Shown piece after piece: positions 1,149-44,351 of a stretch of DNA of 49,681 nucleotides (within the stretch, counting starts at the first letter, position 1; every line of letters starts with the position of its first letter). The notes under the pieces were generated by a model, which had not been told where the DNA came from, ran no database searches, and saw only the letters and a program-made list of their open reading frames with translations. The DNA is from a virus. The translations under genes were made by a program, and so were the position numbers. The stretch is taken from IMG/VR virus record IMGVR_UViG_3300025577_000015, positions 1-49,681 of that record, one strand, 5' to 3'.

Positions 1149-1262
1149 ATGGAAGAGATTGAAAAATTCAACGAGTGGATGCTAAAGATTAATAATAATT
1201 TTTTTGCAGATAACGAAGCTATGACTGAAGCATATAAAAAAATAAACAATGAAGAAATATAA
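1149..1262 (+). CDS. 37-residue micro-ORF upstream of the sigma-like gene
   Basis: A short frame starts with ATG at 1149 and ends with TAA at 1260-1262. It encodes a 37-residue peptide (MEEIEKFNEWMLKINNN and onward), rich in Glu, Asn and aromatic residues. It fills what would otherwise be a 108-base hole between two genes and overlaps the sigma-like gene start by 14 nt, the same overlap style seen elsewhere on this strand. It is either a real micropeptide or a leader ORF that couples translation of the sigma-like gene. No homology is recognised. Confidence 0.4.
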   Translation: MEEIEKFNEWMLKINNNFFADNEAMTEAYKKINNEEI

Positions 1263-1998
1263 TATAGATAACTATGTTAGATACCAAGAAGATCTAAAAA
1301 GATCCATGCCGGAAGGTTTATTCTGGGATGAATACACTAGAGATGAATTAATTATAAAGTTTATGCCTCTTGTAGAAAATTTAGCAAGAAAGTTTGCAAC
1401 ATCACAGCAAGCATCTGGTGTATTGAGTATAAATGATCTAATACAAGAAGGCAATAAAGGATTAACAATCGCTGTAGATAAATTAAACTGGGAGACGTTA
1501 AATGAATCAACAGACATGGAAAAAACTTTAAAGAGTTTCTTTAGCAAAAGAATCAAGGGGGCAATACGAAGAGCTATAGATATAAACAGAGGTGATATAA
1601 AAATACCTGAACACAAGCTTAATGCTATACGCAAAAATCCTAAAGATGAAAAAATGGTTGCTTTATTCTTTAACAGCGTATTCTCAAGCTACGACATAAA
1701 TCCTGCAGATGAAAATAACTTTGCGTATCAATTACCTGATACTTCAAAAAAATATAATATTGATCTGTTAAATATTTATTTGTTAGGTATAATGAAAGAA
1801 CATCTCACTCAAAAACAGTATGATGTAGTAAGATTATTTTATGGTTTAGATTGTGATAAACACTCTGCTAAAGAAATTGCTAGCTACATAAAATTAACTG
1901 TACCGACCGCAAATGTAATCGTGTCTCAGATAAAAAAAGAAGCAATTGACTGTCTAATCGCTAACGTTGACGCAACTCAAGTGATTGATTACCTTTAA
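1249..1998 (+). CDS. phage-encoded sigma-70-family RNA polymerase sigma factor
   Basis: This 249-residue protein has the layout of a small sigma-70 factor. Residues about 30-105 match region 2: LIIKFMPLVENLARKFA, then LSINDLIQEGNKGLTIAVDKLNW and KRIKGAIRRAI, the helices that bind core polymerase and melt the -10 element. Residues about 190-235 match the region 4 helix-turn-helix: LTQKQYDVVRLFYGLD, then SAKEIASYIKLTVPTANVIVSQI. A divergent linker lies between. It would bind host RNA polymerase and redirect it to phage promoters, plausibly those of the opposite-strand late block, though no polymerase gene is in the window to test this. The start at 1249 overlaps the upstream micro-ORF. Family assignment is confident; target promoters are unknown. 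Confidence 0.85.
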   Translation: MKKYNIDNYVRYQEDLKRSMPEGLFWDEYTRDELIIKFMPLVENLARKFATSQQASGVLSINDLIQEGNKGLTIAVDKLNWETLNESTDMEKTLKSFFSKRIKGAIRRAIDINRGDIKIPEHKLNAIRKNPKDEKMVALFFNSVFSSYDINPADENNFAYQLPDTSKKYNIDLLNIYLLGIMKEHLTQKQYDVVRLFYGLDCDKHSAKEIASYIKLTVPTANVIVSQIKKEAIDCLIANVDATQVIDYL

Positions 1999-9908: not shown

Positions 9909-11619
9909 AAACTGGGAAAAGAACAAGGATTACCCTGCGTGGGGTGATAACGACGTATACAAGAAGACTATATCCGGGGGATATTTATTCGACGGAGAAA
10001 GTCCACGAGAAGCTTACTTACGGGTTGCTAAAACAGTTGCTCGTAGATTATATAAACCGGAAATGGCAGAAACGTTCTTCCAGTACATCTGGAATGGTTG
10101 GCTTTGCCTCGCTAGCCCAGTACTATCTAACACAGGTACTGATCGCGGTTTGCCTATTAGTTGTTTCGGGATTGATGTGGCTGATAGCATCCAAGATATA
10201 GGGCAAAAGAATTTAGAGATGATGCTACTCGCTAAGCACGGCGGTGGAGTTGGCGTCGGTATTAATATGATTAGACCCGCTGGCGCTAAAATTACAGGAA
10301 ATGGAACATCAGACGGAGTCGTACCCTTTTGCAAAATATATGACTCAACAATACTTGCCACAAATCAAGGATCAGTTAGACGAGGAGCTGCTTCAGTTAA
10401 TATTAACATCGACCACCCCGATTTTGAAGAGTGGCTTGAAATTCGAGAGCCCAAAGGAGATGTTAACAGACAGTCGCTTAACTTACATCAGTGCGCAATT
10501 GTGGGCGATAAATTTATGCGTAAACTTGAACAAGGAGATGCAGATGCAAGGTCTAGATGGAGTAAACTACTTAGAAAGCGAAAAGCAACTGGAGAGCCGT
10601 ATATTATGTTTAAAGGGAATGTTAACAAAGCAAATCCTGCGGCTTACAAAGACAACGGGTTAAAAGTTCACATGACCAATATATGCAGTGAAATTGCATT
10701 ACACACCGACGAAAGCCATAGTTTTGTTTGTTGCTTATCGTCATTAAATCTAGCGAAATATGAAGAATGGAAGGATACTAACCTTATATATGACGCCACG
10801 TTCTTTCTTGATGGAGTTATGGAGGAATTTATTCAAAGAGCCAAGGGATTACGTGGATTCGAAAATGCTGTTCGATCTGCGCAGAAGGGGAGAGCATTGG
10901 GCTTGGGAGTCCTCGGATGGCATACGTATCTCCAAGAGAAAGGTATTCCTTTCGAAGGCCTACTCTCTCAGTTTGAGACTAGGAAAATATTTTCGCAGGT
11001 TAAAATCGAAAGCGAAAGAGCGTCTAGAGATCTCGCTGAAATATATGGGGAACCATTATGGTGTGCTGGAACTGGTATGCGTAACACTCATCTTCGTGCT
11101 GTCGCTCCTACCGTTTCTAATAGCAAATTATCTGGCAATGTATCTCCCGGGATAGAGCCATGGGCTGCTAACGTATTTACAGAGCAAAGCGCTAAAGGCA
11201 CATTCATTAGAAAGAATCCTACGCTTGTAAAAGTATTAACTGAAAATAATTTAAACAATGAAGAAACGTGGAATAAAATACTGGCTGACTATGGTTCAGT
11301 TCAGGATATTGACGGGTTGGATAATATTACCGTTGGTGATCACAACATACCTGCCAAAGAAGTTTTTAAAACATTTAAAGAGATCAACCAGTTGGAACTC
11401 ATTACCCAGGCCGGATTAAGACAACAGTACATAGATCAATCTGTTAGTTTAAACTTAGCGTTCCCTGCAATAGCGACACCTAAATGGCTTAATAAAGTAC
11501 ATATAGAAGCATGGAAGAAAGGGGTTAAAACTTTATACTATACGCGTACTGAATCTGTGCTGCGGGGTGACATTGCTGCTAAAGCAATGGACGAAGATTG
11601 TCTTGCGTGTGACGGTTAA
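9898..11619 (+). CDS. nrdA: class I ribonucleotide reductase, alpha subunit (no ATP cone)
   Basis: This 573-residue catalytic subunit reduces ribonucleotides to deoxyribonucleotides. Visible active-site parts are C89 (ISCFG, the C225 equivalent), N261-x-C263-x-E265 (the NxCxE radical site), and C278 in a CCLSSLNL motif (C462 equivalent, with an extra C279 beside it). The Tyr pair Y547-Y548 is for radical transfer, and C568-x2-C571 near the end is for re-reduction. It is much shorter than E. coli NrdA and begins directly in the catalytic region, so the N-terminal ATP-cone that senses dATP is absent. It is the last gene of the plus-strand block, just before a terminator. Very confident. Confidence 0.94.
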   Translation: MWNENWEKNKDYPAWGDNDVYKKTISGGYLFDGESPREAYLRVAKTVARRLYKPEMAETFFQYIWNGWLCLASPVLSNTGTDRGLPISCFGIDVADSIQDIGQKNLEMMLLAKHGGGVGVGINMIRPAGAKITGNGTSDGVVPFCKIYDSTILATNQGSVRRGAASVNINIDHPDFEEWLEIREPKGDVNRQSLNLHQCAIVGDKFMRKLEQGDADARSRWSKLLRKRKATGEPYIMFKGNVNKANPAAYKDNGLKVHMTNICSEIALHTDESHSFVCCLSSLNLAKYEEWKDTNLIYDATFFLDGVMEEFIQRAKGLRGFENAVRSAQKGRALGLGVLGWHTYLQEKGIPFEGLLSQFETRKIFSQVKIESERASRDLAEIYGEPLWCAGTGMRNTHLRAVAPTVSNSKLSGNVSPGIEPWAANVFTEQSAKGTFIRKNPTLVKVLTENNLNNEETWNKILADYGSVQDIDGLDNITVGDHNIPAKEVFKTFKEINQLELITQAGLRQQYIDQSVSLNLAFPAIATPKWLNKVHIEAWKKGVKTLYYTRTESVLRGDIAAKAMDEDCLACDG

Positions 11620-13136: not shown

Positions 13137-16100
13137 TTATTTATTTTTATTAGCTTTTTCTTTTCTTTTTTTTGCTAGCGCGGCTCTAAATTTTGCATTT
13201 TCAATAGATTCTAATGAGTCTTTTTTCTTTTTTGTTTTTGCTCTTGTATTTCTAGACTTTATTCTTCTTTTTTCTTTCTTAATAAAATCCTCTATATCTC
13301 TTTCGTCTTGTGTTAATTTAGATCTTCTATCTTTCTCCTTCATTTCCTTAAGAAGCTTTTCCTGCTTTCTTTTTTCTTTTCTCTCTTCTGCCTTGCGCTC
13401 TTTGTTTTCTGCTTTAATTTTTATTTCTAACAAATCATTTTCTTCATTTTTAGCGCCGACATTCCATGTTTTCCAACCTAATGCTAATGCTATCCTTTGC
13501 CAAGCAGTGTTCCTAGAATCCAATGCTTCTGTAATAGAATTAACTTCATCTACTACTCTGGCCATTGGTATATTAGTAATCCCCTCTACAAGATTACCTG
13601 CTGAATTCCATCTAGGACTTAAATTAAATTTACCGTCTATAGTGACATCCCAACCCCTTTCGCTTATAACTTCTTTGTCAAATCTTTCTCCTTTAGCAAA
13701 GTTTACAATCTTTCTAGCTTTTGAACCTACCGCGGGTGATATATTAAGCAGGGCTATAAGTGTTTTAGAGTCGTCTGCTAAAAACCCTTTATCGTTCTGC
13801 TTTTTATATTCTATTATAGCATTCTTTAAAATAGACACAACAGCTCCAGGTAAACCAAAGCCTCCTTTAAGAGTAGTGTCAACCATTGAATTTACAACCG
13901 CAAAAATCTTTTTTTCTGTTTTTTCCTCCATGGTCATTTTTCCCTCTTCGTCTTCCTCGTCGTTAAATCCTGGAATAAGAGCAAACATTGCGGCTTGGAG
14001 CGCAGAAAAAATAGCATTCTGTATAGTTCCGTAATATATTATTTTGCTAAAGTTCGTAAAATCACTTTGAGCCTGTGTTTGCCCTGGTATTCTTCTTCTA
14101 TTGTATATATCTTGGGCAGACTTTTTTATAGATCTATTAAGTTGTATAGGTGTATTCATGAAGTTTAATACAACCCTACCTAAAGAACTGGATTGATCGG
14201 AAGATATTAAAGCAGGATCTCCTGATTGCTGTGTTTCATCTGAAATAGGGATAAAATCTTTAAAAGCTTTATCCTCTGCTTGCTTCCGCGTGTATTTAGG
14301 TTTACCGTCAGCGCCTTTTTCTTTTAAGTAAGTGTTAACTCTATTTCTATAGAATGTAGCACCACCCGAGGCTATGGCGAAACTATCTACCATTTGAGTA
14401 GGTGTAAATCCTATTTTAAGTAAGTAGTTTAATGCAGCTGTTGCCTTATCCGTAGCGCCTGTAACAGCACTCGCAAGTTCAGCGGCATTTACGTCTGTTT
14501 TTAAACCAGATCTTCTTTGCTTAAGCTTGGGCGAATTAAATATCATTGCAAAATCAGCCCAATATTGTTTTTGGTCTGCAAATGCTGCGGCCGCCTTCAT
14601 AGGATTATTGTCACTCCAGTTTATAAAGTTTACCGTGGATAGAAGCTGCAACAAAGCAGATCTTCTGTTAAAAAACATTATAGCCCCTATAGAATTGTTA
14701 AGCCAGTTATTCCACTTCTGCTCATTTCTTTTCATACTAGCGGCTCTGTTTACACCGTTTTTCATTCGGTATAATATATCTTCTATAGCTTCTCTATGAG
14801 CCTTTCCGTATATTGCCTCTATTTTGTTTAAATTATTTTCGCTAAAGATTAGATCAGAGTTTTCTATGAATTCCTTAAGGTATTCTTTTCTACCTGTTTT
14901 TTCTGTAAAGTTATTAATATCAGATAATATAGTTTGCACTGCCCAATACTCGGACGGTTTAGACCATTCTTTTTTCTGAGCTACCTGCAGCGCACCATTT
15001 GCATAAGCCATTAGTTCCGCGTCTCCCTGAACAAACCTAACAAGCTCTCTCTCTTGCTTTCTAGTAAGACCTGGTATTTCATACCCCGCTTTATTCCAAA
15101 GGTACACACGCAGCGCTTGATCATGCGTATAAGCCATACCCGGAACTCTCTTGCCTAGCTTTTTTAATACAGGCTTGTATTGTTTATTTAATGCCGCGAA
15201 TCCGTTTTTAAGAGATTGCTTTACTATATCTATTTCGTTTATAGCCCTCCAGTAAGGCTTAACTAAAGCGTCTTGGAAAAACTTTTGATCAGCATCACCT
15301 TGTCTTCCTTTACCAGCAAATGTATATTCCGTTAACCCTCTAAAATCTTCAAGTGACGACGGCATCCAAATTTTCCACTTGCCTTTGTTCTTACCTAATA
15401 TTTCACCTTCAACCCTAGTTAATCTTTTTCTAGACTTTATTCCGGATGCTCTTTCAAGCATGTCATTAAAGTTTTTATTTAACTGTTTGCTAAATTTAAC
15501 TCTAGATCTTTGCGTGGGTCCTTTAACATCAAACGTGTTAAGTATATCTCTTACAGCTTTAGGTTGATTTTTAAAATCTACTATAGACAATTCCGTTTGT
15601 CCTTTAACGCCTTTGCCCTTAAGCGCTTTACCTACGGCTTTAACATTACCCATGTGATCGTCAGCAAAGTAAAAGTCATTATATCCTTCCGCTATCTTAC
15701 CAACCATCCAATCAGCCTTAGCCTGCGGTGATCCGTTACCTAAGCCTGTGATGTTTTCTATAGGTATATTTAAACCTTCCGACTTTAGAAACTCATGTAT
15801 TGCGGCCGCTGAATTAGCTGGTCTTGCAGTTAAAACAAATATATCTTTATTAGTATACTTACCTTCTTTCTTTTGCGCTTCGCTAAACAATGGACCTAAC
15901 TCACCTTTCATTACTTTACTAAACTCGCTAAAGTCAAACTCAGCTCCTTGCTCGAGCATTGTTTCTGACTTAGCGGCAAATTGAGCTGCGTTTAGCTTAC
16001 CTTTTGTACCGTCAGGCATAACGTATAGCACATTACTTTTCGTGCGGGCTAGCGTGTCGTCAAAGTCAAATACGCTAATACCTTTAGGATTTTGAGAGAA

Positions 16101-19100
16101 CTTAATGCTTGCCGCGTTGTTTATGGCTTTTTGTCCATTAATAGCTTTTGTATATGCTGGACCGCTTAAGTTTTTTGAAAATTTACTATAATTTTTTACG
16201 GCAATATCAGCCTTGTCTTTACTTAATTTAGATACTTCTCGTAAATCTAGTAGATTATTTTTTGTAAATCCTGGATGTAGGATAGTCATTCGATTGGTAA
16301 ACATCCTTGTGTCCCCTGGATTTTTCTCTTTTAACGCTCCCGGTACAGGAAATGTTGATTGGCTAACCGCATCAATAGATTTAGCTATAGATTTTGGTAA
16401 TAGTGTTATTTGGCTCTTATCAATAATACTTTGCACAGCCGCTTTTGATACACCTCTACCCATTATGTAATTAGATGCAGCGATTAACAATTGTTTAGTA
16501 GGTGTACCGTGCTCAAACGTGTAATCTTTTGCTGTTATTCCGTCGCCTTTGTAAAAGGCTCTAAGCTTAGCTAAGGTTTTAGCGGCGGTACGCATACTTT
16601 TACCTTGAGAATTCATTATCACAGCGGCAGCTAACGGGGTAATACCTGTATCTTTACCCACTAGCTCTTTAAGCAGTTCTACCATATCCATAAATTGAAT
16701 AGCACTTTTTTCGCTTAAGTCAATTCTATCTTTAAATAAAACGCCGTAACCTGTGCCGGCAATAAGTTTTTTAAAATCAGGTGCATTAGCTTCCTGCACA
16801 AGTACGGAAGTAGTTTTAGTTTTATCTTTACTATTTTTAGACTCTTTAGAGAAAAAAGTAAACCCTTTTCCATTTTTATTTTCTACGAGTTCTAACCCTG
16901 ATTCTTTAATAGCAGCGTCTATTTCTATATTTTTCTTTTGTAGTTTCTCGATGAAACTCATGAACCCCACATTAGTGCCGTATATGCTTTGTCCTGTGCC
17001 TGTAGTTAAACCTGGCTGGAACATGCGTATAAAAGCGTTTACCCCTTCTACGTTGCCCTTGCTCTCTATAAGACTGCGCAAAATATTTTTAAGGCTTAAA
17101 TCAACTTCTAGCTTTGCAGTTTCTGAAAGATTAGCAAAAGAAATATCTTTAGCATTTTCGTTAAATATATTTGTAATATCCCCGGCAGCTTTGTCTACTA
17201 CAGCGTTTAAATAAGTTGTTAAATCTGTATTACCTGCGGTATTAAATTTAGCAAACTGTTCTATTGACTTGTCGGTTACAGATTTGTTGTTAAACGCACC
17301 CATCACATGTAGATCAACTAAGTTTTGCCAAAGTGTATTTAATTTTGCATCACCCGCTCTTAATTTTTTGAGCTCATCAGGATCATAAAATAACCCTTGC
17401 GCTAAGTCATCTTTAAACTTAGCTTTTAAGTAAACAGTAAGGTCTTTACGAGCCTTTTCAAACGCGCTATTTTTAGTAGCAATACTAAACTTAACGTTGC
17501 CTCTATCGGCATCTCTTTGTATTTGTTCTACAAGGTTATCAGCAAGTACTTCTCCTTTCTGCAATTTTCTTTCCTGATTAGTTTCAAAAACTTCGCTTAT
17601 TTCACTAGCAGGATTTACTATTTCAGAGGTAAATATTTCAAATGAAATTTCTTCAGCCATAGCTTTAGCTAACGCCTCTTTTCTACCTCTTATTGGGTTG
17701 CCGCTCTCCTGTAAAAATTGTGCTAAGTAAGTATCGTCGTCAATAATTTCGTCTACATTTTTGTAATTAACTATGTTTGGATGTCTCCTTACAAGCAAAG
17801 CCCCCGACGTTCTACCCGCGTCATCGGTGCTTGTTTTTTCCCTAGCTATTTCTTTGCCAACCCAAGCTGGATAAGAAACCCACTTACCATTTTCTTTAAG
17901 TTGCTTTTGTATTGCTTGCGGTATTCCACCTTGACCATCTTTACCCATTAACCAGGTTGTGGTCATGTTTTGTAACGTTGCCTTTTTAGTCTTAAGTAAA
18001 AACTTTCTAAGCTTACCGTCTTTTTTGCCTCCCATAGCTGCTTTAAGATCTATATCGGCTTGCTTACCCATTTCAAATTGTATCTCTGCCATAAGCGGAG
18101 TTACAGTACGGTTATTGGATATAGCGGCATCCATTCTGGATTTTAAAGTACGAAGTACCATTTTTAACTTAGCTTTTACAGCCTTTATTACTTCGTCTGA
18201 TACTACACCGGCATCCGTTAAGTTTCTGTATTTAGGCTTTTCTTTTACTTCATTCGAACTTTCGTCTGCTGTAATATTCTTAGCCGCTGTAACGTCTTCC
18301 GTAAAGGTGTTTTCAGTCACTCTACCAGTCTTTAACGCGCCTCTCATTCTATTACTTAGCTGAGCCATTGTATAGCCGAACAGGGAGTCATTTTTAGACG
18401 GGTCAAATTTCTTTATATAAGGTATAAGACTAGCTATGGTTTCACTAACCATGTTATCCATTTCAAATCCAGGTAGGTTTGTAAGATTAACTATATTGTT
18501 ACCTGCTGTTTTAAATGCTTTTACTTTAGATCGGATCATTCCGTCTAACGTTTCGTATATAACAGGATCATTTGCGTCAAATCCTTCAGGATTATTACCT
18601 ACAGCATCTAATTTCTTTTTAGATTTTGCGGTAACATCGCTTAATTTTTGCTCATCTTTTTTAGAAGCTTGAGGTGCATCAATATCTGATTTAGCTTTAC
18701 GCTTTGCTTTAGGCTTTGGCTCCGCTTTTACTTTAGGTGGATTTTCGATGTTCTCGTATTCCTCCTCTAGCTTGGCTATTTTTCTATCATGTGTGTCTTG
18801 ATCTATAAAACCTTGCATTAAATCGTCTCCTATTTCGCCAATTTCTTGGTCAATAGCTTCCATTCGATCTTCTTCAGCTTCCGTAAGCTTACGACTAAGC
18901 TTTGTAGTGCCTTCTTCTTCGTCAGTATCAATGTTTAAGCTTTTGCCTTTTACAGCTTTTTTAGTCCAACTAGAAACAAACTGGAATATAGAACTAGCGT
19001 CGTCTAACTTAAAGTACATAGAGGCATCTCCGTTTAAGAAACGCATTATAGAATTTATACCTGTTTTTATTTCGTATACTTTATTATATGAGCTTTTTGG

Positions 19101-22100
19101 TAAAGCACCTATGTTGGTTAAATCGGCCACTAGCTGTATTAGCTCGTCCGCGTCTATCCCATTAGTGTCGGCGTACTCTTCTTTCTTATACGCTAATACT
19201 CTTTTGTTGAAAATATCAAAAACTTCTTTTGAAATAGTCCCAGCTTCTCTTAGCGCCGTAACCTCAGCTATTATGCCTTCCACCATTTTTTTGCCATCAC
19301 CTACAACTCTATCGTTTTTAATAATGCCTGCATTTCGGGTTTGTATATGTCCAAGCTCATGGAGAGGTGACATAGCAGCAATTCTACCGGTATATCTATC
19401 TTGTGTAAGAGCACTTGCTATTATGTTCTCTTTAAATAGGACTACCTCATTAGAAGTTTTGCCTTGAACGGTTGTATTTGCCGCATAATTTCTGTCTTTG
19501 TATCCTTTTCTAAGAGTATTTTTTTCTACTTCGTTGAACTTGTCTTTTTCGTTACCCTGGTCGTCTTCAACTTTTTGATTAACATATTCTTCTAATTGCT
19601 CAGCGCTATTAATTTCAGTAGAATTTACATTATTTTGCCCTTTAATTATGTTTTTTGAGTAAAAATATAGTTGCACGTTTGCGGCAGCTTCTACTTTATT
19701 GCCTAGGCCGTCTATATCTTTAAGAATCTTTTCCATTTCCTGATCTTTTTTCTGGAATACGGATTCTCTTTCTCCTTTTATTTTTGTTAACTCTTCATTT
19801 AGTCTATCCATTTCCTTGGTAGACCAATTGCTTACATCTCCAGAAGCTCCTAATGCAGCAGCTTCTTTTTCTAATAATCTTATTTCTCTATTGGCTTCAG
19901 TTATAGCTTCAAATTCCTCCGCCGTTAAATCATTAACTTTTAATACGATATTTGTATTTTCTAAAGATAATTCTTTTAATGCAGCTCTCCTTCTTTTCCT
20001 TAAGATGTTTCTAGCATCTGCGGTTAACTGATCGGAATTTAGTTCTTTTTGTATCTCTAGTATTTCGGTTCTAAGCTTAGCTTCTTTTCTTGCTTCCCTA
20101 GAATTTCTAAACTCGCTAGCAATTGCTGAGTATATATTTTGACTAGCCATAGGCCCCCCTATAGCGAAACTAGTAATCATAGTGTTTGCCGCAAAGTCTT
20201 TGTCTAATCCTTCGAATAGATTTTTATCTTCGCCAAGTATAACTATATCTGAAAAATTCTGGCCAACTAAAGTAAACCCTTCCTCTAAATATTCAATACC
20301 GCCACCTATACCAACAGCTGTAGTAGCTCCAACAGTTTTTGACAGGGCTCTAGCTATACTTCGGTTCATTACTTTTCTGAACTCATTGTAACCTATTGCT
20401 CTGGAGTATTTTTGAAAGTTATTTATAAACCCTAATGTACCAAATCTTTCAGCAAGAGAAGCAATACCTCCGTAAACCAAGCTGTTAAAAGACTTTTGCG
20501 TTTGCGACATATTAAGCACGTCCTCTTGATCTGCTAATATTTTTTTTAGTTCACTTATTTCCGTAGGGTCGTCTGTTTCTAGCAGTGCCTGCGTTATTTC
20601 TTCTTTTATTTTCGCGGCTTCTCTTTGAGCTATTTCTAGGTTTGCCATTTGCCCTCCCGCTTCCATGGTGAAGAACACACTCATTGCTAATCTATTTACG
20701 CCTTTGTTCCACGCCGCTGCAGTCATGGCAGTACCTAAGTTTTGCACTCCAGATTTAGTGGCTGCTTTAGTCAGGGCTGACCTTATAATATTTTTAGCTA
20801 CCATTCTACCACCAATATTAACTAAGGCACCGCTTCCGCTAGTTGCTAAAGCTACTAATATAGAGGGTGAATTATCTACAAGCGTCATACCTAAGTAATC
20901 AGATGTACTTAATCCTTCATTATCTAGCGTTGGCCTAAACAACTTCTCTTCGTTCCTAGACTGTAGCCTTTGATTGTAGTCTATAGCGGCTCCTTTGTCT
21001 GCAACAAGATCACCATACCATTGCGATTCAAGTATTCTTTGTTCAGCTAAATCAGCATTAATGTCATCAGAAGCGTAAGCCCTAGCAATAGCGATAGGCA
21101 CGTCTCCTAATAAAAACTTTTTAGTGGAAGCCCCTAACATAGCGCCGCTGCCTAAAAAAGAATTCTCCATAACCATAGCCATTCTATCGTCAAGCTCATA
21201 GGTTTTATATGCTGCTTCTTGTGCTATTTTAAATTTACTTAACTGCCCTGCCCTTTTTGTTATTCTATCAGACTCCGTCATCATTGCTTGACGTTGTTGA
21301 TCTAGATTATTCCATTCGGCAGACATCGCCGCGTTGCCTTCTCTGAAAGTTTTAGCGTATTGATCTTGTAAAAGCTGTCTATATTCAGGATCGTCTGTAT
21401 TATTAAAGTTTTCTTCAATATTACCAAGCAAGTAATCGTAATCTGCTTTAATTTCTTCTAATGGAGTAGCTCCTCTTTCAGTGTAATCATTAAGCTGCTG
21501 ATCTAGCTTTTTGTACCTTTCTTGTAGATCGGCTTCCGAACTTGCTTGGTATTCTTTTAATGCGTTGTTTAAGCGTTCTTCTGAAGCCTCTTCATTGTAA
21601 GGAATGTATGTTCTGCCTTGTATAGTTTCTTTAGAAGTTAATGGGCGTCCAAATTTAGCTTCAAAATCGGCATTGTCTTTTTTTCTAAGAGCAGCTTCTC
21701 TTTTATTTTCTTGCACTACTTCTAACGCTCCGTTATCACCTTCAAGCTCAGCTGCTATTTTAAATTGCTCGCTTTCGGGTATATCATTATTTATCATGTA
21801 GTTAGCGGCTGCTTCTTTTTTCTGCCTAGTAACTACATCTGTAATTGTATTTTGCTCTATTTTGGATAAGTCTATATACTTATTTATATTTTCAGGCGTT
21901 AAAGTTTCGTTAGCTAACCTAGCCTTTTCCTGCACCTCTGTCCAGGTGTTATACTTCTCTTCGCCTAAATAATTTTTTAGATCCTCCTCGTACGAATTAG
22001 TATATACCCTTTTATTGCTAAACCCGCTTTTATCTATAGTATATTCTCTACCCGCAGTTGATTCACCTATTGGAACTAGTTTACCTTCTTTATTTTTTAC

Positions 22101-22709
22101 AGCAGCATATTCAGGCATTAATGGAATAAATTCATTTGTCCCAAAAGTTCCTTCTGTTAAATTAAAATAATCTTTAGCAATCTCATTTTTAGCTTTAGGT
22201 GTTTTTGAGTTTACCGAATCTAGTGTTTTGTTTAAACTTATTGCTTCAGAGCTAGGTAATTCCGGCTGCTCGTATTTTGTTTGTATCGGCGCATTATATA
22301 GCTTTGCATATTCTTCAAAAGTTTCAGGGTACAACTGTCCATTAGAGCTTTCTTTTCCTGCAAAATCTCTTTGGTATAAATCGCTTCTAACTTCTTGTCC
22401 TCCTTTGAATTTTATATACTCTATTTTTTTAGGCTTTCTTTCTAAGTCACCTTCAAATTCAATTTTTACGGGCTGTTCTTGTTCCTCCAATGAACCATCT
22501 TCCGAGGTGGAATCCCCATTTGATGCTTGACTTGTCTCCGGAGTTACAGACGCATCGGTCTCCGCATCTCCGTTCTGAAAATTTTCAGTTGGGGGTGTTT
22601 CTTCAACAAGTACCGCATTTGGATACTCTGCTAAAAACTTATCTAATTTTTCGGGCTTTACATTAAATTGCTTTGCGTCCCTGTCTGGAGATGTTCTATA
22701 TATAGGCAT
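13137..22709 (-). CDS. giant polyvalent virion protein with zincin and HAD motifs
   Basis: This 3190-residue protein is one uninterrupted frame of 9.6 kb. N-terminal residues are acidic and low-complexity (about 40-90). An Ala/Gly-rich hydrophobic stretch at about 605-690 could insert in membranes. HELGH at 1117-1121 is an HExxH zinc-peptidase motif. A helical segment with KKFDPSKNDSLFGY near 1433-1446 resembles a module of phage polyvalent proteins. A HAD-type phosphatase follows: D2215-x-D2217 in VFDFDDTLA, LTARP at 2293-2297, FADDH at 2348-2352. A second hydrophobic helix lies near 2890-2915 and the last 100 residues are a Lys/Glu/Arg tail. No polymerase DxDGD is seen. Such proteins are packaged and injected to act early in the host. 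Placement after the internal virion genes fits. Confidence 0.82.
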   Translation of the reverse strand: MPIYRTSPDRDAKQFNVKPEKLDKFLAEYPNAVLVEETPPTENFQNGDAETDASVTPETSQASNGDSTSEDGSLEEQEQPVKIEFEGDLERKPKKIEYIKFKGGQEVRSDLYQRDFAGKESSNGQLYPETFEEYAKLYNAPIQTKYEQPELPSSEAISLNKTLDSVNSKTPKAKNEIAKDYFNLTEGTFGTNEFIPLMPEYAAVKNKEGKLVPIGESTAGREYTIDKSGFSNKRVYTNSYEEDLKNYLGEEKYNTWTEVQEKARLANETLTPENINKYIDLSKIEQNTITDVVTRQKKEAAANYMINNDIPESEQFKIAAELEGDNGALEVVQENKREAALRKKDNADFEAKFGRPLTSKETIQGRTYIPYNEEASEERLNNALKEYQASSEADLQERYKKLDQQLNDYTERGATPLEEIKADYDYLLGNIEENFNNTDDPEYRQLLQDQYAKTFREGNAAMSAEWNNLDQQRQAMMTESDRITKRAGQLSKFKIAQEAAYKTYELDDRMAMVMENSFLGSGAMLGASTKKFLLGDVPIAIARAYASDDINADLAEQRILESQWYGDLVADKGAAIDYNQRLQSRNEEKLFRPTLDNEGLSTSDYLGMTLVDNSPSILVALATSGSGALVNIGGRMVAKNIIRSALTKAATKSGVQNLGTAMTAAAWNKGVNRLAMSVFFTMEAGGQMANLEIAQREAAKIKEEITQALLETDDPTEISELKKILADQEDVLNMSQTQKSFNSLVYGGIASLAERFGTLGFINNFQKYSRAIGYNEFRKVMNRSIARALSKTVGATTAVGIGGGIEYLEEGFTLVGQNFSDIVILGEDKNLFEGLDKDFAANTMITSFAIGGPMASQNIYSAIASEFRNSREARKEAKLRTEILEIQKELNSDQLTADARNILRKRRRAALKELSLENTNIVLKVNDLTAEEFEAITEANREIRLLEKEAAALGASGDVSNWSTKEMDRLNEELTKIKGERESVFQKKDQEMEKILKDIDGLGNKVEAAANVQLYFYSKNIIKGQNNVNSTEINSAEQLEEYVNQKVEDDQGNEKDKFNEVEKNTLRKGYKDRNYAANTTVQGKTSNEVVLFKENIIASALTQDRYTGRIAAMSPLHELGHIQTRNAGIIKNDRVVGDGKKMVEGIIAEVTALREAGTISKEVFDIFNKRVLAYKKEEYADTNGIDADELIQLVADLTNIGALPKSSYNKVYEIKTGINSIMRFLNGDASMYFKLDDASSIFQFVSSWTKKAVKGKSLNIDTDEEEGTTKLSRKLTEAEEDRMEAIDQEIGEIGDDLMQGFIDQDTHDRKIAKLEEEYENIENPPKVKAEPKPKAKRKAKSDIDAPQASKKDEQKLSDVTAKSKKKLDAVGNNPEGFDANDPVIYETLDGMIRSKVKAFKTAGNNIVNLTNLPGFEMDNMVSETIASLIPYIKKFDPSKNDSLFGYTMAQLSNRMRGALKTGRVTENTFTEDVTAAKNITADESSNEVKEKPKYRNLTDAGVVSDEVIKAVKAKLKMVLRTLKSRMDAAISNNRTVTPLMAEIQFEMGKQADIDLKAAMGGKKDGKLRKFLLKTKKATLQNMTTTWLMGKDGQGGIPQAIQKQLKENGKWVSYPAWVGKEIAREKTSTDDAGRTSGALLVRRHPNIVNYKNVDEIIDDDTYLAQFLQESGNPIRGRKEALAKAMAEEISFEIFTSEIVNPASEISEVFETNQERKLQKGEVLADNLVEQIQRDADRGNVKFSIATKNSAFEKARKDLTVYLKAKFKDDLAQGLFYDPDELKKLRAGDAKLNTLWQNLVDLHVMGAFNNKSVTDKSIEQFAKFNTAGNTDLTTYLNAVVDKAAGDITNIFNENAKDISFANLSETAKLEVDLSLKNILRSLIESKGNVEGVNAFIRMFQPGLTTGTGQSIYGTNVGFMSFIEKLQKKNIEIDAAIKESGLELVENKNGKGFTFFSKESKNSKDKTKTTSVLVQEANAPDFKKLIAGTGYGVLFKDRIDLSEKSAIQFMDMVELLKELVGKDTGITPLAAAVIMNSQGKSMRTAAKTLAKLRAFYKGDGITAKDYTFEHGTPTKQLLIAASNYIMGRGVSKAAVQSIIDKSQITLLPKSIAKSIDAVSQSTFPVPGALKEKNPGDTRMFTNRMTILHPGFTKNNLLDLREVSKLSKDKADIAVKNYSKFSKNLSGPAYTKAINGQKAINNAASIKFSQNPKGISVFDFDDTLARTKSNVLYVMPDGTKGKLNAAQFAAKSETMLEQGAEFDFSEFSKVMKGELGPLFSEAQKKEGKYTNKDIFVLTARPANSAAAIHEFLKSEGLNIPIENITGLGNGSPQAKADWMVGKIAEGYNDFYFADDHMGNVKAVGKALKGKGVKGQTELSIVDFKNQPKAVRDILNTFDVKGPTQRSRVKFSKQLNKNFNDMLERASGIKSRKRLTRVEGEILGKNKGKWKIWMPSSLEDFRGLTEYTFAGKGRQGDADQKFFQDALVKPYWRAINEIDIVKQSLKNGFAALNKQYKPVLKKLGKRVPGMAYTHDQALRVYLWNKAGYEIPGLTRKQERELVRFVQGDAELMAYANGALQVAQKKEWSKPSEYWAVQTILSDINNFTEKTGRKEYLKEFIENSDLIFSENNLNKIEAIYGKAHREAIEDILYRMKNGVNRAASMKRNEQKWNNWLNNSIGAIMFFNRRSALLQLLSTVNFINWSDNNPMKAAAAFADQKQYWADFAMIFNSPKLKQRRSGLKTDVNAAELASAVTGATDKATAALNYLLKIGFTPTQMVDSFAIASGGATFYRNRVNTYLKEKGADGKPKYTRKQAEDKAFKDFIPISDETQQSGDPALISSDQSSSLGRVVLNFMNTPIQLNRSIKKSAQDIYNRRRIPGQTQAQSDFTNFSKIIYYGTIQNAIFSALQAAMFALIPGFNDEEDEEGKMTMEEKTEKKIFAVVNSMVDTTLKGGFGLPGAVVSILKNAIIEYKKQNDKGFLADDSKTLIALLNISPAVGSKARKIVNFAKGERFDKEVISERGWDVTIDGKFNLSPRWNSAGNLVEGITNIPMARVVDEVNSITEALDSRNTAWQRIALALGWKTWNVGAKNEENDLLEIKIKAENKERKAEERKEKRKQEKLLKEMKEKDRRSKLTQDERDIEDFIKKEKRRIKSRNTRAKTKKKKDSLESIENAKFRAALAKKRKEKANKNK

Positions 22710-23834: not shown

Positions 23835-24452
23835 TTATTTGCTAAAAGCCTCTAATCCAGGCAGTACTTGCGAAGCAGCTCCAGCAATGTTTCCAACCCC
23901 ACCTAATATAGATTGTGTTGCTGCGTCTCTCGCTGCATTAGCTGCCCCCAATCTTTGTTGAGACATGCCAAACATCGTATCCACTTTATCTTTTTCCGCT
24001 GCTCTAGAAGCGTATTCTCCTTGTAATTCTTGATTTTGTAATTTTCCGGCCATTTGTCTTTCGGCCATTTGATTTTGTACTTCCTGCCTACCTATATCCG
24101 CCGAGCTTTGCATAGCTGCATTGCTTTGTGCGCCAGCTAATGATTGTGCTAAAGCCGCAATACCAGAACCTCCAGCTGCTCCGGACAAATTATCCATTGT
24201 ATTGGCAAACCCGCTTGCTTGCTGCTGCGCTTGGAATTCGGCAGCTTGCGTATTCACAGTTAAGTCTTCCATGGTATTTTCCATGTTCATTGCAAGGTTA
24301 GACGTGTCTGCTCCTTCCATTCTAGCTTTGTTTCTATTAAATTCTGCTTGCGCTGCTTTTTGTTCTCTTTTTCTTTTGCCGCTGCCTATCATACCTCCAG
24401 CAATTCCTGTAAGACCTGACACAACGCCACCTATAGCTCCTATTGGTATCAT
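23835..24452 (-). CDS. internal virion / ejection protein (T7 gp14-like in style)
   Basis: This 205-residue protein starts with a Gly-rich hydrophobic helix (GAIGGVVSGLTGIAGGMIG), then a basic patch (SGKRKREQKAA), then a long Ala/Gln/Met-rich helical body and a second Gly/Ala helix near the C-terminus (ILGGVGNIAGAASQV). This layout is typical of small phage ejection proteins that insert into the host envelope and form a channel for DNA. It precedes the larger putative ejected proteins in transcript order, as in T7 and P22 clusters. The family is judged by composition and position, not by strict motifs. Confidence 0.7.
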   Translation of the reverse strand: MIPIGAIGGVVSGLTGIAGGMIGSGKRKREQKAAQAEFNRNKARMEGADTSNLAMNMENTMEDLTVNTQAAEFQAQQQASGFANTMDNLSGAAGGSGIAALAQSLAGAQSNAAMQSSADIGRQEVQNQMAERQMAGKLQNQELQGEYASRAAEKDKVDTMFGMSQQRLGAANAARDAATQSILGGVGNIAGAASQVLPGLEAFSK

Positions 24453-26475: not shown

Positions 26476-29400
26476 TTATCTTGGAGTAAAGCAATCTGTG
26501 TCTAAACTATTAACAACTAAGAATTCTGTTTGAATAACATTTACCGCGTTAGCCCTGCCTATACCCTGCACACTAAACTCCCTTGAATCTACATTGTTGT
26601 CGCAATTTGTTGTATAGAAAGTGTCCATGCCCCTTATGTAGTTAAATTTTTTACCTTCCTTGTCTATAAATTCTTTTAGTTGTCCTTCTTGCAAGTCTGT
26701 AACAATAGAATTAACATACCAGCCTTCTGTTTCTCTTATGCGAACAGGTGTTATATTTGCTGCTTGTATTTGTGCTAATGAAAACCACTGCGGATTTGGA
26801 GCATTTGTATTTGTGTACGAGTATTCTTTAGAATCAGTACCACTATAGTTTAAAGTTTTGTACCCTTTAACCATAGCTGGGTTGTCATTAAATATAGTAT
26901 TAAAAGAGCTTTCGTAGTAAGGCCCAATAAGTTCAGAGGCTCCAGGGCCTACTCCATAAAAGGTGTTGTACAAAGGATTAGCTGCGTGCTCATATATTAA
27001 TCCGTTTTTAAATGTATAATAAACGTTGTTTATATATGTGGCTGATTCCGGCACATAGACTTTTCTTGAAGTAAATCCGTTTATATCTTCCTTAAATGAC
27101 ACAGTCGTGCTGGTAGTCGGTAAACTATTAACAAATTGATTACACAGCGGGTGCTTGTTAAGCCTGTCAAATGTCCCTGCTCCTAAAGTTTGTTGCCAAT
27201 AAGGAGTTAGAGCGTTTAAGGATATATTGTAGTTTCCTTTCTGAACATCGTAAGATCCTATTATAGTTTTATTAACATTTAAGTTATCTGAAAAGAATGA
27301 GTGCATGCCGTAATCAGATATATCCGTTATACCGTCGCCTGACAATCTAAGCACCGAACCTCTATTAGCATCAGTATAATACATTCTAAAGCCAAACTCG
27401 GCGAATGATTCAGGATTAGTAGCTATGCCAAATTCACCTTGAAAAGTTAATGTCTGACCCAGTACCGCAGCGTTAGATGTTAAGTTAGTGCTCCCGTCAG
27501 CGTTAAATAGAGCGTCTTTCTTAGCCAATATCTTCATTGACTTGTTTTCGCACAAGGTGATTAAATCAGTGTCTCTGGTGTGCAGTTTTTGTATACTGCC
27601 ATACTCTGGGTTTACGTCTTTAGTAATGCCCTCCGCTTGTATAAATTGATTTAAGTTATTTGTACTTGATACGGAGTTAAATATTTGCGAGAATATAAGG
27701 CCTGTGGATCTATGCTCCTCCGCGTAAGGTGCATCCAGCGTTGCAGAAGCTTTGACGCCATCTCCTATTATAGGTTGGTTAAAATCGTCCCTAATGCGAT
27801 CTGACTCAACACCATTTGCAAATGAATAACAATTAAACCAAGTTAAATCTTGGGTTTGCCCAAAATCACTTATGTCATAAACACCCGGGGCTTCCCAATA
27901 TATATCTAATTCAGCAGCTTCTTTTGGTTCCGTTTCAAATATAGCAGGGCTAGAGCTAGAAAAAGTATCATCATTTGGGTCTGATGCTAAAAACTCTATA
28001 CCCACGTATGCAAATTGATTAGTAAAATTATATGCTGGGCCGCTGCCTTCAATAATATTTGGAAGAGTGGAAGGATTCCAAGGGAGTGCTGTTGAACCAC
28101 CTTCAAGCTGTTCAAAAGTAAGTGTCCACCTTGCGTATTGGTTTGTCTGTGCATCCCAGGCATCCGAAGCGCTTGAGTTATTAGTACAGTCATAATTAGT
28201 TCCGAGATTAAGCTGGCTATTAGTCACAACATAAACAGTCCCAGTGGGGTCTTTTACGCCGTTGCCAATGTCTACAAACCTAAACATAGTTCCTACTGTA
28301 TTAAGCTGCTCCAGTAATCGAGGATTCCGGTCCACTATACCGTGGGCATGGCCATTTGTAGTGTTGGTTCTACCCGCTCCGTATCCGGTAGCATCAGTTA
28401 TAACTATTTTCCCTTCAACGTCTGTTCCCTGCCCCCTGCTTTCGCATTTAGGGTTAAATCTATCAATGAATATTCTACCTGTTTGGCCCGTTGCATCAAC
28501 CTGCGGCCAAGACCCTCCTTCTTTCCAGAAACTGCTGTTAAATTCACTAGCGGAACTAAAGTTCCAAAGCGGGGCAATAGCTTTTCTAATAAACGTATTG
28601 TTATTATTTCTAGCCGCTTGTATTTTTTGCCTTAATATATTGTCTGAGTTTACTTTAACAAAAAACCTTCCGGTAAATTCAGCTTTCTTAACGTCTGTTA
28701 AATCATATAGCGTTACTCCCGTGCCTTCTGGAACTTCTCCGCCAGAAACTGTAGCAAAATTTACATCTGGACCAAATGCGGGGGATACTACTATTCTAAC
28801 AAAATTCTGTGTTTGGTCTAAAGAAAAAGTAGATATTTTATAATACTCGCTTACCTGGCCCGCTGTACCCGTTATTCTTAATTGTAAGCCGGATTCAGTA
28901 CGGGTTTCCGCTCCAAACGCTTGATCAAAATTAGTTTTTGGAATTTGCAATTCATTACCGCCTTCGGTAGGTGTGGCTCCTTGCCCTCCACCAAAGTTGG
29001 TAAGAAGATTTCCTTTACCAAGTCTTTGCTGCGTTAAAAACAAAGGGGCCTCGTTTTCTATAGCTATTACTTTATATCTGCTTTTTTCAAAAACAGGTAT
29101 ATTGTTATCGTGTTCTTTTTTTAGTATCAGAAAAGTATCTTCGTCTACTTTATTTCTTTCTGCGGACGGAAATGAAAGCCATACATTACCATCTTCTGCA
29201 TCATAAAACCTATCTAACGCTAGATTGTAATATTCTCTTGACGTTTCTTTTATGTAATACTTGTAATGTGTAAAATCAGCAAAGCCAGTTAAAGTTTTAT
29301 ATTTAGGTGGGTTGCCATTTAGGGTTACTCTTATATTGTTTGCGCTAGCAGAAGATGCTTTTTCTACAACCAAAGAAGCACTATTGCTCGTGAGCACAGG

Positions 29401-31035
29401 TGTTGTTCTGCCGTATTTATCCATATATGCCACTCCTATTTGATAGGTGCGCATTGTTTTAATTGACGGGTGTACTAATACGTTGTTTGTATTAACATAA
29501 GTAGGCCCTGTGTTCTCAGTGGATATAGTCCTAGAGTACAAGCCAACCGACATATCTGTTTTGTAGGGAACTTTGGTAAACGGGGTGCTTAATGTAAAAT
29601 TTTGAACGTAGTTGCCATATATTAATCTATTTGCCGTTACTTCTTGAGCGAGAGCTCTGCGGGGCACATTGTCATAAGGTCTTAATAGCTGATTGCTTTG
29701 TATTACAGAAGTTATTATTTCCGTCTTTATTTCAAAAGTGTTGTTTTGCCAACCTGGGTCTGTAGGCTTAAACCCATCAACAACATACACGTTAGCATTG
29801 TTCGATGCCTTGTAAAGTATTTCTACTTCTTCAACATCCCCTGGCATATCCGCAGGTATAAAATTAGATATAGTTAACTGCCTAGTATTGTTAGTCATAC
29901 CAAGGTTATAACCCTCTTTTGGAGAATAGTCAAACTCCCCTGGCAAAAAAGCTACATTTGAAAAAGCAGAGTAAGCAGAAACCTGATTGTTCTTATATTT
30001 CCACCTTGTAGCGAATCTGGCAAACTTGAATTCAAAAAGCGGTTGTTGCTGCTCGAGTATTACGTTATATAGTTGAGGGTCTGTTGTATCCGCCCCTGTT
30101 GTACTTGGCCCCACGCTCAACACAATAACATCAGCCCCTGTTTGTGTAGCCCCTTCTTCAGGCGGAATAATCCCTGCTATAGAGCATCTTATTTCTGCAA
30201 CTTCTGAACCGGTTTCGCCTTCATTATCAAGAGTTAGTATAAGTACATCTCCCTCTCTATAAAAGGGAGGGGTCTGGTTTTGCGCCCAGGTTAATGTTTT
30301 TTCAGTACCGGTAGACACTGGAGTAGCAACTCCTGCCCCATTTAAAATCATAAAACTAGCGTCCGTAGTAGTAGATATATTAACAATATTACCCTCATTA
30401 TCCTCCTGCGCAACTGAAGATAATGATATTGTAGGCGGATTTAATGGATACTTTTTTATTACAGTAATATCTTGCTCAATAAAATCTCTCCCATATATTT
30501 GCGAGTGTGTGCTAAAATCAGGGGTTGAATTAACCCAATCCTTTATGGTTATACTTTTGGGCTCAGTTTGGTTATCTGTCCACATTAGTATCCCCTCTAT
30601 TATATTTATACCTGTTATTAAGTAATCCTTACTGAAATTAAGTATACCCTCGTCATAGTCTACTATTAACGGGGCTGTTACTTTTGTTACGGTATTATAC
30701 GAAGCTATAGCACTAATATCACCTGGGCCTGAGGCTATAAACCAATATATTTCATCTGAATTTCTGTCAGCCACAGAACCTATACATACTGCGTCATTAA
30801 TATCGTCGTCAATATAACCGCTGGTCCACAAAGTTCTTTGCTGCGTAACTGGATTATATGTTTTATACCTTAGCTCTAAGTTGCCTTTTATATTTTGAAA
30901 AGTACCAACCTGTGAGCTATCGGAAGAAGCTAACTCTAAATTTAAAGCGTCTCTATATTCTCCGTTAGGAACAAGCCTTTCATCAAGATCTTTGTTCATT
31001 TTACCCGAGGTAAATGTGCGTATTAATTCTGCCAT
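26476..31035 (-). CDS. very large tail-hub / muzzle-type protein
   Basis: This 1519-residue protein has a characteristic N-terminus, GKMNKDLDERLVPNGEY, then RDALNLELA and VGTFQNIKGN. I associate this with the tail nozzle or stabilisation (muzzle) protein of crAss-like and related marine podoviruses. The body is beta-rich and long, as needed for a barrel-like tail tip. It follows two connector-type genes and precedes appendage and ejection genes, the expected place. It would close the tail channel and trigger opening. There is no enzyme motif. The class is likely; exact family needs profile comparison. Confidence 0.78.
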   Translation of the reverse strand: MAELIRTFTSGKMNKDLDERLVPNGEYRDALNLELASSDSSQVGTFQNIKGNLELRYKTYNPVTQQRTLWTSGYIDDDINDAVCIGSVADRNSDEIYWFIASGPGDISAIASYNTVTKVTAPLIVDYDEGILNFSKDYLITGINIIEGILMWTDNQTEPKSITIKDWVNSTPDFSTHSQIYGRDFIEQDITVIKKYPLNPPTISLSSVAQEDNEGNIVNISTTTDASFMILNGAGVATPVSTGTEKTLTWAQNQTPPFYREGDVLILTLDNEGETGSEVAEIRCSIAGIIPPEEGATQTGADVIVLSVGPSTTGADTTDPQLYNVILEQQQPLFEFKFARFATRWKYKNNQVSAYSAFSNVAFLPGEFDYSPKEGYNLGMTNNTRQLTISNFIPADMPGDVEEVEILYKASNNANVYVVDGFKPTDPGWQNNTFEIKTEIITSVIQSNQLLRPYDNVPRRALAQEVTANRLIYGNYVQNFTLSTPFTKVPYKTDMSVGLYSRTISTENTGPTYVNTNNVLVHPSIKTMRTYQIGVAYMDKYGRTTPVLTSNSASLVVEKASSASANNIRVTLNGNPPKYKTLTGFADFTHYKYYIKETSREYYNLALDRFYDAEDGNVWLSFPSAERNKVDEDTFLILKKEHDNNIPVFEKSRYKVIAIENEAPLFLTQQRLGKGNLLTNFGGGQGATPTEGGNELQIPKTNFDQAFGAETRTESGLQLRITGTAGQVSEYYKISTFSLDQTQNFVRIVVSPAFGPDVNFATVSGGEVPEGTGVTLYDLTDVKKAEFTGRFFVKVNSDNILRQKIQAARNNNNTFIRKAIAPLWNFSSASEFNSSFWKEGGSWPQVDATGQTGRIFIDRFNPKCESRGQGTDVEGKIVITDATGYGAGRTNTTNGHAHGIVDRNPRLLEQLNTVGTMFRFVDIGNGVKDPTGTVYVVTNSQLNLGTNYDCTNNSSASDAWDAQTNQYARWTLTFEQLEGGSTALPWNPSTLPNIIEGSGPAYNFTNQFAYVGIEFLASDPNDDTFSSSSPAIFETEPKEAAELDIYWEAPGVYDISDFGQTQDLTWFNCYSFANGVESDRIRDDFNQPIIGDGVKASATLDAPYAEEHRSTGLIFSQIFNSVSSTNNLNQFIQAEGITKDVNPEYGSIQKLHTRDTDLITLCENKSMKILAKKDALFNADGSTNLTSNAAVLGQTLTFQGEFGIATNPESFAEFGFRMYYTDANRGSVLRLSGDGITDISDYGMHSFFSDNLNVNKTIIGSYDVQKGNYNISLNALTPYWQQTLGAGTFDRLNKHPLCNQFVNSLPTTSTTVSFKEDINGFTSRKVYVPESATYINNVYYTFKNGLIYEHAANPLYNTFYGVGPGASELIGPYYESSFNTIFNDNPAMVKGYKTLNYSGTDSKEYSYTNTNAPNPQWFSLAQIQAANITPVRIRETEGWYVNSIVTDLQEGQLKEFIDKEGKKFNYIRGMDTFYTTNCDNNVDSREFSVQGIGRANAVNVIQTEFLVVNSLDTDCFTPR

Positions 31036-43997: not shown

Positions 43998-44351
43998 TTA
44001 TGATTGTTTATATGCTTCGTTTTCCCACTCAAAATCCGGATGTCCCTCGTTCATTGTGGCTCTGTCGTATTTCCTAGCCGGAGATTTTGTATCTCGCTTC
44101 CAGGTAACAGAATCATCTGAATATTGCAATCTGCCTGTAGCCATTTGATCTAAATGCACTTTTTCGTGATTAACAGCATCTTGCACTTTGCTTTCAGGCA
44201 AGCTTGAGCTAACAAAGATCGTTCCATCTCTATTAGCTTCGGCTTGTACTCCTTCTTCTAAATCGTCTTTTATAATAACAGGTGTGCCAAACTCTGACGT
44301 AGCGTCATGCAAACCAAATATTTCAGAATGGGGTTTTAGCTTAAATGCCAT
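43998..44351 (-). CDS. small HExxH zincin-like protein with SPAR motif
   Basis: This 117-residue protein has H62-E63-K64-V65-H66 in AVNHEKVHLDQM, the zinc-peptidase HExxH motif. Acidic residues that could give a third ligand lie in MNEGHPDFEWENEAYK near the end. SPAR at 90-93 is a variant of the SPxK motif. I recall similar small proteins in phages with a conserved HExVH and a C-terminal NEG/WExEAY block. No other candidate prohead or maturation protease is visible in the window, so a maturation role is possible but unproven. It is tightly packed with its neighbours (2 and 6 bases). Confidence 0.65.
   Translation of the reverse strand: MAFKLKPHSEIFGLHDATSEFGTPVIIKDDLEEGVQAEANRDGTIFVSSSLPESKVQDAVNHEKVHLDQMATGRLQYSDDSVTWKRDTKSPARKYDRATMNEGHPDFEWENEAYKQS

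Follow-up and report, generated by a model that had tools for sequence, protein, structure and literature searches.

The virion RNA polymerase gp50 of phage N4 (Schitoviridae) is an ejected cargo protein of about 3,500 residues with an HExxH domain, and leaves the virion with two other ejection proteins encoded in the same operon (PMC12633501). In the crassvirus phi-crAss001, the cargo proteins and the virion RNA polymerase are found among gp45-gp50, and the cargo of crassviruses is believed to be partly unfolded during ejection (PMC10172136). The polyvalent proteins of Iyer et al. 2017 (PMC5512222), found in phages and conjugative elements, are very long multi-enzyme chains with a zincin hub and ART domains, encoded in phage late-gene neighbourhoods. 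The same source ties their MPTases to lethal factor and proposes that zincins cleave polyvalent proteins.

The window analysed here is a whole virus record of 49681 bases, with completeness unstated, and encodes a giant protein, P0001, whose family resembles the polyvalent proteins in all the respects listed above. The HAD domain with its inserts and the sigma2-like domain would be additions of the P0001 family; the words sigma, phosphatase, haloacid and dehalogenase were not found in the main text of PMC5512222. P0001 is third of a trio of genes, as gp50 of N4 is ejected with two partners, but no RNA polymerase domain was recognised in it; it has a sigma2-like segment instead and no sequence match to gp50. 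P0001 also lies downstream of a muzzle-like tail protein, as the crassvirus cargo does, whereas a search for the D.D.D motif (DxDxD) of the crassvirus polymerase found none in P0001, and the crAss link of the phage consists of two sub-threshold Pfam matches. P0001 matched no RNA polymerase in Pfam or PDB, and a polymerase of the T7/N4 or crAss type was rejected for lack of both motif and family match; PF00940 (T7-type RNA polymerase) gave no match in 25 records, the control genomes being silent too. The comparison with the literature draws on PMC5512222, PMC7824862, PMC10172136, PMC7886860, PMC12633501, PMC8776804 and PMC13288928.

The giant reading frame and its neighbourhood

As the initial annotation of this DNA stated, P0001 is encoded by a single uninterrupted frame that takes about a fifth of the window (3190 codons; 9573 of 49681 bases, 19%). 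The strand, missing from that annotation, is the minus strand, with an ATG start at the 22709 end, and the plus strand across the same interval is full of stop codons. Features and coordinates are given in Table 1. The HELGH motif was found where it had been placed, at residues 1117-1121, and so was the complete HAD motif set of DFDDT from 2215 (D2215, D2217), LTARP at 2293-2297 and FADDH at 2348-2352; to these are added motif III, K2331 within AKADW, and a probable third ligand of zinc, E1189. As described, the N-terminus is acidic, the first three 200-residue blocks having net charges of -16, -8 and -13, and all blocks from residue 2001 onward are positively charged. The two hydrophobic regions claimed earlier are mild: the most hydrophobic 19-residue windows lie at 616-634 (mean Kyte-Doolittle 1.37) and 2894-2912 (1.33), and no window of P0001 exceeds 1.5. 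The whole chain matched only DUF808 (E 0.097) in Pfam, PHROGs and PDB, and no sequence relative turned up among 50,697 phage records by megablast or tblastn. The domain assignments are fairly secure.

Table 1. Coordinates of the features of the window (residue numbers refer to P0001)
Feature	Position	Strand	Remarks
Stand-alone sigma factor of the phage	1249..1998	+	Region 2- and region 4-like matches; used for comparison with the sigma-like part of P0001
Giant ORF P0001, 3190 aa	13137..22709	-	At least 67 distinct relatives, 56 complete, 1564-3370 aa
C-terminal all-helical platform, ~2420-3100	13410..15452	-	Predicted model; fold common to phage polyvalent proteins
HAD phosphatase domain, ~2207-2391	15537..16091	-	Motif I at 16053-16067; alignment, model
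HAD flap tip, around P2232	16011..16016	-	Insertion site in relatives; no insert in the window
Strongly conserved block, ~1480-1745, fold unassigned	17475..18272	-	Alignment of 19 sequences
Sigma-70 region 2-like segment, ~1398-1466	18312..18518	-	PF04542, hhalign, fold, position control
Zincin-type domain, ~1077-1200	19110..19481	-	HELGH at 19347-19361, E1189 at 19143-19145
N-terminal segment, 1-87	22449..22709	-	55-58% identity to L004 and L005
360-aa gene directly before the P0001 gene	22742..23824	-	Middle of the conserved trio; no match in phage records
205-aa gene, hydrophobic Gly-rich start	23835..24452	-	Window mean 1.65 at residue 4
1519-aa tail protein, crAss muzzle-like C-terminus	26476..31035	-	PF25729 E 0.0011, below cut-off
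Terminase	38869-41082	-	First in the structural block

The minus-strand order is terminase, portal, capsid, two virion proteins, the 1519-aa tail protein, four smaller genes and P0001, whose gene is the final large one in the structural block; next come a 110-aa gene and an M15 peptidase. The portal matches P22_portal below cut-off (E 2.5e-5), and the two virion proteins match PHROG 14543 and 13977 (E 1e-37 and 4e-42). The product of the 205-aa gene has no match in phage records; judged by eye, it is presumably T7 gp14-like. A trio of genes encoding about 200-350 aa, 360-600 aa and the giant is kept on the same strand and at the same structural-block position in nearly all relatives.

The terminase and the portal have matches in 87 phage records each, with identical make-up, namely 68 from Flavobacterium (elemo), 15 from Cellulophaga, two from Tenacibaculum, one from Maribacter, and MW202828. 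The phage of the window is a podovirus related to Elemovirus, Pervagoviridae and Pachyviridae. The syntenic gene encodes proteins of 3694 aa in Elemovirus, 3859 aa in MW202828, 1691 aa in phi38:1 and 1829 aa in Panino, the first and third of which are called 'structural protein', a label that may derive from similarity. Profiles of the P0001 family found nothing by hmmsearch in the ORFs of the named phages, and the giants of Elemovirus, MW202828 and the Cellulophaga phages are for this reason linked to P0001 by position only; the further links of named-phage giants are a weak BLASTP match to the relative L007 (E 0.001) and the fold match to Gundel_1 given below. Among six named giants, Pfam identified DUF3293 in that of Elemovirus (E 1e-12) and, weakly, a GNAT domain in that of Gundel_1.

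The capsid protein (33767-35221) matches a crassvirus capsid model at a sub-threshold E of 0.0038. Together with the match of the 1519-aa protein this is a lead, not proof, hinting at a distant Crassvirales ancestry for Elemovirus, Pervagoviridae and Pachyviridae, and tblastn of the two proteins reached only the flavobacterial group and MW202828. Elsewhere in the window, a 271-aa protein (6810-7625) has a T5orf172-like N-terminus (E 0.0018) and a MazG-like C-terminus (E 0.00027), both below the Pfam cut-offs. A 117-aa protein of the late gene block (43998-44351) contains HEKVH with a weak match to the DUF6782 metallopeptidases (E 0.027) and is possibly a second zincin. The phage also encodes a GroEL (45039-46646, Cpn60_TCP1 E 5e-56), and GroEL and cpn10-type genes are present in named relatives such as Elemovirus and MW202828.

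Relatives and exchange of modules

Relatives of P0001 come from metagenomic viruses. Patterns taken from P0001 led to five contigs, one of them identical across the whole protein, and these together with the 21 loci of a middle-block scan comprise 19 distinct giants. A HAD scan contributed 80 loci taken from 544 confirmed stretches, and after removal of 20 of the 87 HAD-bearing ORFs as duplicates at least 67 distinct giants remained, 56 of them complete. A further 80 terminase loci stop short of the giant gene and were hardly used.

The relatives L004 and L005 are 55-88% identical to P0001 at residues 1-87, 1270-1750 and 2171-3190, and the regions 90-1260 and 1750-2170 are replaced in them by sequence with no significant match. 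The replacement extends to the DNA level in L004, and the replaced half still has HELLH at the corresponding place. The N-terminal half and single domains are swapped between relatives like modules. Residues 1-87 are a candidate virion-docking or packaging segment. Pfam found no informative domain in the 49 N-terminal variable regions of alignment A8, which holds 49 of 57 such regions.

The order of the two enzyme motifs is kept in most relatives despite this exchange. HExxH lies 830-1161 residues upstream of HAD in 51 of the 56 complete relatives (mean 986 +/- 71), and its occurrence 600-1300 residues before HAD, observed in 51/56, is expected 0.0016 times per shuffled protein. The 19 giants from the pattern search and the middle-block scan were not selected for HAD, and all 19 have HExxH and 17 have HAD; L104 is without HAD, and L102 is split across two frames. 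At E 1e-3 the middle-block profile A5 recovers 35 and the zincin profile A4 41 of the 56 complete giants, so these parts vary or diverge strongly, and a middle block common to all relatives was rejected on the A5 count. The structure alignment A6 omits 38 of the 67 giants, those in which RGRKE or HExxH is missing.

The C-terminal platform and the polyvalent class

A BFVD fold search with the HAD domain and C-terminus returned 46 matches at E <= 0.001. Four close uncultured-virus relatives (29-43% identity) are followed by many phage proteins, mostly of 8-15% identity over 700-1160 columns, with names such as PolyVal ART, ART-PolyVal-like, large polyvalent protein-associated and Gundel_1 structural protein (E 2.2e-4). 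The third match, an uncultured-virus protein of 43% identity, is labelled UDP-N-acetylglucosamine kinase, a name that fits the kinase insert described in the next section. The similarity of the predicted fold to these proteins is the best evidence that P0001 belongs to the polyvalent class, as had been proposed, and the swapping of domains among relatives supports the same assignment. P0001 has several unrelated domains on one chain (zincin-type, sigma2-like and HAD segments) and is encoded with virion genes; known polyvalent domains are seen through the BFVD folds, the ART-PolyVal insert of the relative L164 being below cut-off. No description of a HAD domain in a polyvalent protein was found in the open-licence literature searched.

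HAD phosphatase domain

HAD motifs I-IV (DxD, T/S, K, DD) are all present and invariant in 63 aligned sequences, at D45, D47, D48, T124, K161, D180 and D181 (residue 1 being residue 2171 of P0001); only K161, D180 and D181 are unbiased, because most rows came from a scan with motif I and II patterns. Structure prediction of residues 2171-3110 (mean pLDDT 72.7) gave a Rossmann-like HAD fold at the named residues, as anticipated by the initial annotation. With VIA-align the 3'-phosphatase of T4 Pnkp came first (Z 10.1, rmsd 2.8, 120 aligned), followed by Nir2 (Z 9.1) and then by other phosphatases, including acid and CTD phosphatases. Ten chains had Z >= 8, and the top ten rows are HAD-type by their titles, one being 'hypothetical protein PH1952'. 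Foldseek against PDB gave no significant match to the HAD model, and a PDB search with the HAD profile gave no match.

The spacing between motifs I and II is 76-78 residues in 63 of the 67 giants, and the remaining four have inserts at the flap tip. The insert of L157 is a P-loop kinase (AAA_33 E 1.6e-16, Zeta_toxin E 2.5e-11) with 4gp7 as best PDB chain (E 0.005), which we take to be the kinase domain of a bacterial Pnkp. This kinase is found at 10115-10771 nested within HAD, and the HAD matches of L153 and L158 are equally long. The insert of L164 is ART-PolyVal-like below cut-off (E 0.0085), and that of L002 and L109, about 185 residues long, is ART-like by eye and matches no family. Judged from these sequences, the HAD flap is an insertion site in the relatives of P0001 and would serve as a socket for exchangeable effectors. 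The kinase of T4 Pnkp is N-terminal, and kinase and HAD are likewise joined in the one P0001-family lineage; in contrast to T4 Pnkp, the L157 kinase sits in the HAD flap, and P0001 is without a kinase.

The HAD domain of P0001 leans towards a predicted action on nucleic-acid ends, since its nearest fold is the T4 Pnkp phosphatase and the domain carries a P-loop kinase in one lineage. A domain acting on nucleotides, clearing defence signals, or on phosphoproteins such as host RNA polymerase or translation factors is a possible alternative that we consider the less probable. It draws on the lead of T4 Pnkp over the next row, which is only 1.0 in Z (10.1 vs 9.1), on the acid and CTD phosphatases that follow, and on the first Foldseek match, a class C acid phosphatase at E 0.20 and probability 0.95; the top VIA-align row and the inserted kinase argue against it. 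A phage RNA ligase as partner of the HAD domain was rejected, PF09414 being found in 0 of 25 records or contigs with positive controls detected, and the repair role is therefore weakened, although the host could supply a ligase. The controls for PF09511 were silent. Pnkp-type and Swiss-army-knife HAD phosphatases of RNA repair are phage proteins according to a jumbo-phage review.

Zincin-type domain

The H, E and H of the motif and the distant Glu (E1189) are invariant in 19/19 sequences, which are otherwise 14-27% identical to P0001 except for L002 at 91%, and they are also invariant in 29/29 rows that were chosen for HExxH. The family Zincin_1 matched below cut-off, at E 0.012 for the P0001 segment and E 1.5e-4 for the L002 giant. 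The model around HELGH has a pLDDT of mostly 72-89, and its fold rows point to lethal factor at Z 4.7-5.3 and an rmsd of about 5, covering chain residues ~43-263, which we take to be the N-terminal, catalytically dead zincin-like domain and not the catalytic domain. The zincin profile against PDB gave as best match a nicotinamide phosphoribosyltransferase off the motif (E 0.095), and over the HExxH motif a snake-venom metalloproteinase (E 0.34). The zincin proposed earlier is thus strongly indicated by its motif with the conserved distant Glu, but the model lends the zincin fold only weak support, with Z 5.3 at best.

HExxH is missing from five of the 56 complete relatives. Two of these, L192 (E 1.8e-12, at 848-1150) and L125 (E 6e-4), may have lost the motif, because the zincin profile still matches them, and their zincin domains are apparently dead metallopeptidases.

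Sigma-70 region 2-like segment and conserved block

Two parts of the middle region were missing from the initial annotation, a sigma-70 region 2-like segment and the conserved block that follows it. The sequence KKFDPSKNDSLFGY was recognised by eye as sigma region 2 before testing. PF04542 matched P0001 at 18333-18467 with E 0.0086 and 11.9 bits, below the cut-off of 24. In 55 distinct viral records PF04542 matched only stand-alone sigma genes of 250-267 aa and three giants, those of the window, L002 (E 0.011) and L170 (E 0.007), in the same place and all below cut-off. When a sigma region 2 profile of 22 sequences (16 of 38 sigma ORFs having been dropped for lack of a match) was compared by hhalign with 74 sliding windows, scores reached 26.2 over residues 1397-1466 with 70/73 columns and at most 8.9 in windows not covering this segment. 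In 31/62 giants the highest-scoring position for region 2 falls 600-850 residues ahead of HAD, each single score being low, versus 1-4/62 in five block-shuffled sets; 62 of the 67 giants entered this test, L188 and the frames open at the 5' end being omitted. The sliding windows and block shuffles speak against a match produced by chance or by composition, and the Pfam, profile and position tests use one sequence signal and are not fully independent.

The fold comparison pointed to the same place. About 28 of the 50 VIA rows listed are sigma subunits by titles or chains, mostly over model residues 346-447 (P0001 1362-1463), several of them meaningless because their rmsd is over 20. The best of them is pro-sigmaK (Z 5.8, rmsd 2.7, 77 aligned), in a model of mean pLDDT 62; every Z is below 6, and below 8 the tool warns of what is possibly a common helix arrangement. 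A profile of the sigma-like segment and conserved block found a single PDB chain, the WhiG sigma factor, at E 1, which is insignificant alone. Region 4 (PF04545) was detected in stand-alone sigma genes in four of six records and in no giant frame. The aromatic residues of sigma region 2.3 are its melting residues, and they are not evident in the P0001 segment. P0001 is thus region 2-like by Pfam, profile and fold, but differs from the sigma-70 family in matching below cut-off, in being without region 4 and in carrying the segment within a chain of 3190 residues. The region 2 similarity is taken as real, and a sigma-like function is putative. The open-licence literature searched contained no account of a virion giant with a sigma-like domain.

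The block at 1480-1745 is the most conserved part of the middle region, with TTT, GRTSG and RGRKE motifs and invariant Arg, Lys and Asp, and is possibly another enzyme.

Discussion

The chain of P0001 runs from a zincin-type domain through the sigma-70 region 2-like segment, the conserved block and a HAD domain with all catalytic motifs to a helical platform. The reading that we favour, with moderate confidence, is that P0001 is a polyvalent protein and, among the cargo (ejection) proteins of this short-tailed phage of flavobacterial type, the largest, carrying a protease, a sigma2-like module that docks on RNA polymerase and an end-healing phosphatase. The earlier interpretation of P0001 as an injected polyvalent protein with a peptidase and a phosphatase is thereby partly supported. 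Gene order and analogy suggest that virions contain P0001 and thread it into the host before the DNA or along with it, the trio that it completes corresponding to gp14-gp15-gp16 of T7 or gp52-gp51-gp50 of N4. The zincin would then cut P0001 into working pieces, in line with the proposal of Iyer et al., or cut a host protein. The sigma2-like piece may dock on host RNA polymerase, favouring phage promoters or displacing host sigma, and the HAD domain may strip phosphates from nucleic-acid ends and so heal RNA cut by host defences, assisted in some relatives by the inserted kinase or ADP-ribosyltransferase. A more specific version has P0001 deliver a partial sigma, freed by its own protease, whose sigma2-like domain seizes the RNA polymerase of the host for the first wave of phage transcription while the Pnkp-like phosphatase, together with a plug-in kinase or ADP-ribosyltransferase, maintains cut RNA in a usable state; in its entirety this version is speculative and rather unlikely to be right.

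P0001 could instead serve chiefly for mechanical ejection or as a protein of the tail lumen, like T7 gp16, with domains that act in virion maturation and passage rather than in host takeover and a sigma-likeness that is a chance helical bundle. The gene position and trio, the mostly helical C-terminus and a sigma match below cut-off with Z < 8 all agree with this, but the catalytic residues of two enzymes are invariant, the HAD inserts are of effector type, and the sigma signal is limited to one place and stands above the shuffles, which makes a mainly mechanical role unlikely in our judgement. That P0001 is made early and works in the infected cell, its structural neighbours being accidental, is improbable: no virion proteomics for the family was found in the open-licence literature searched, but strand and structural-block position are kept in nearly all relatives, the syntenic Elemovirus protein is annotated as structural, and the fold resembles the Gundel_1 structural protein.

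P0001 represents a large marine family of giant proteins, without description in the open-licence literature searched, in which the catalytic residues of zincin and HAD survive while much else is shuffled. Syntenic giants occur in isolated phages, namely Elemovirus on Flavobacterium and Calle and phi38:1 on Cellulophaga, and virion content and RNA polymerase binding are therefore directly testable. N4 and the crassviruses inject their own polymerase, and T4 Alt modifies that of the host; the sigma2-like module of the favoured reading, if true, would do the job of the former with a borrowed polymerase, and an injected sigma-like piece would be a third way of starting transcription from the virion.
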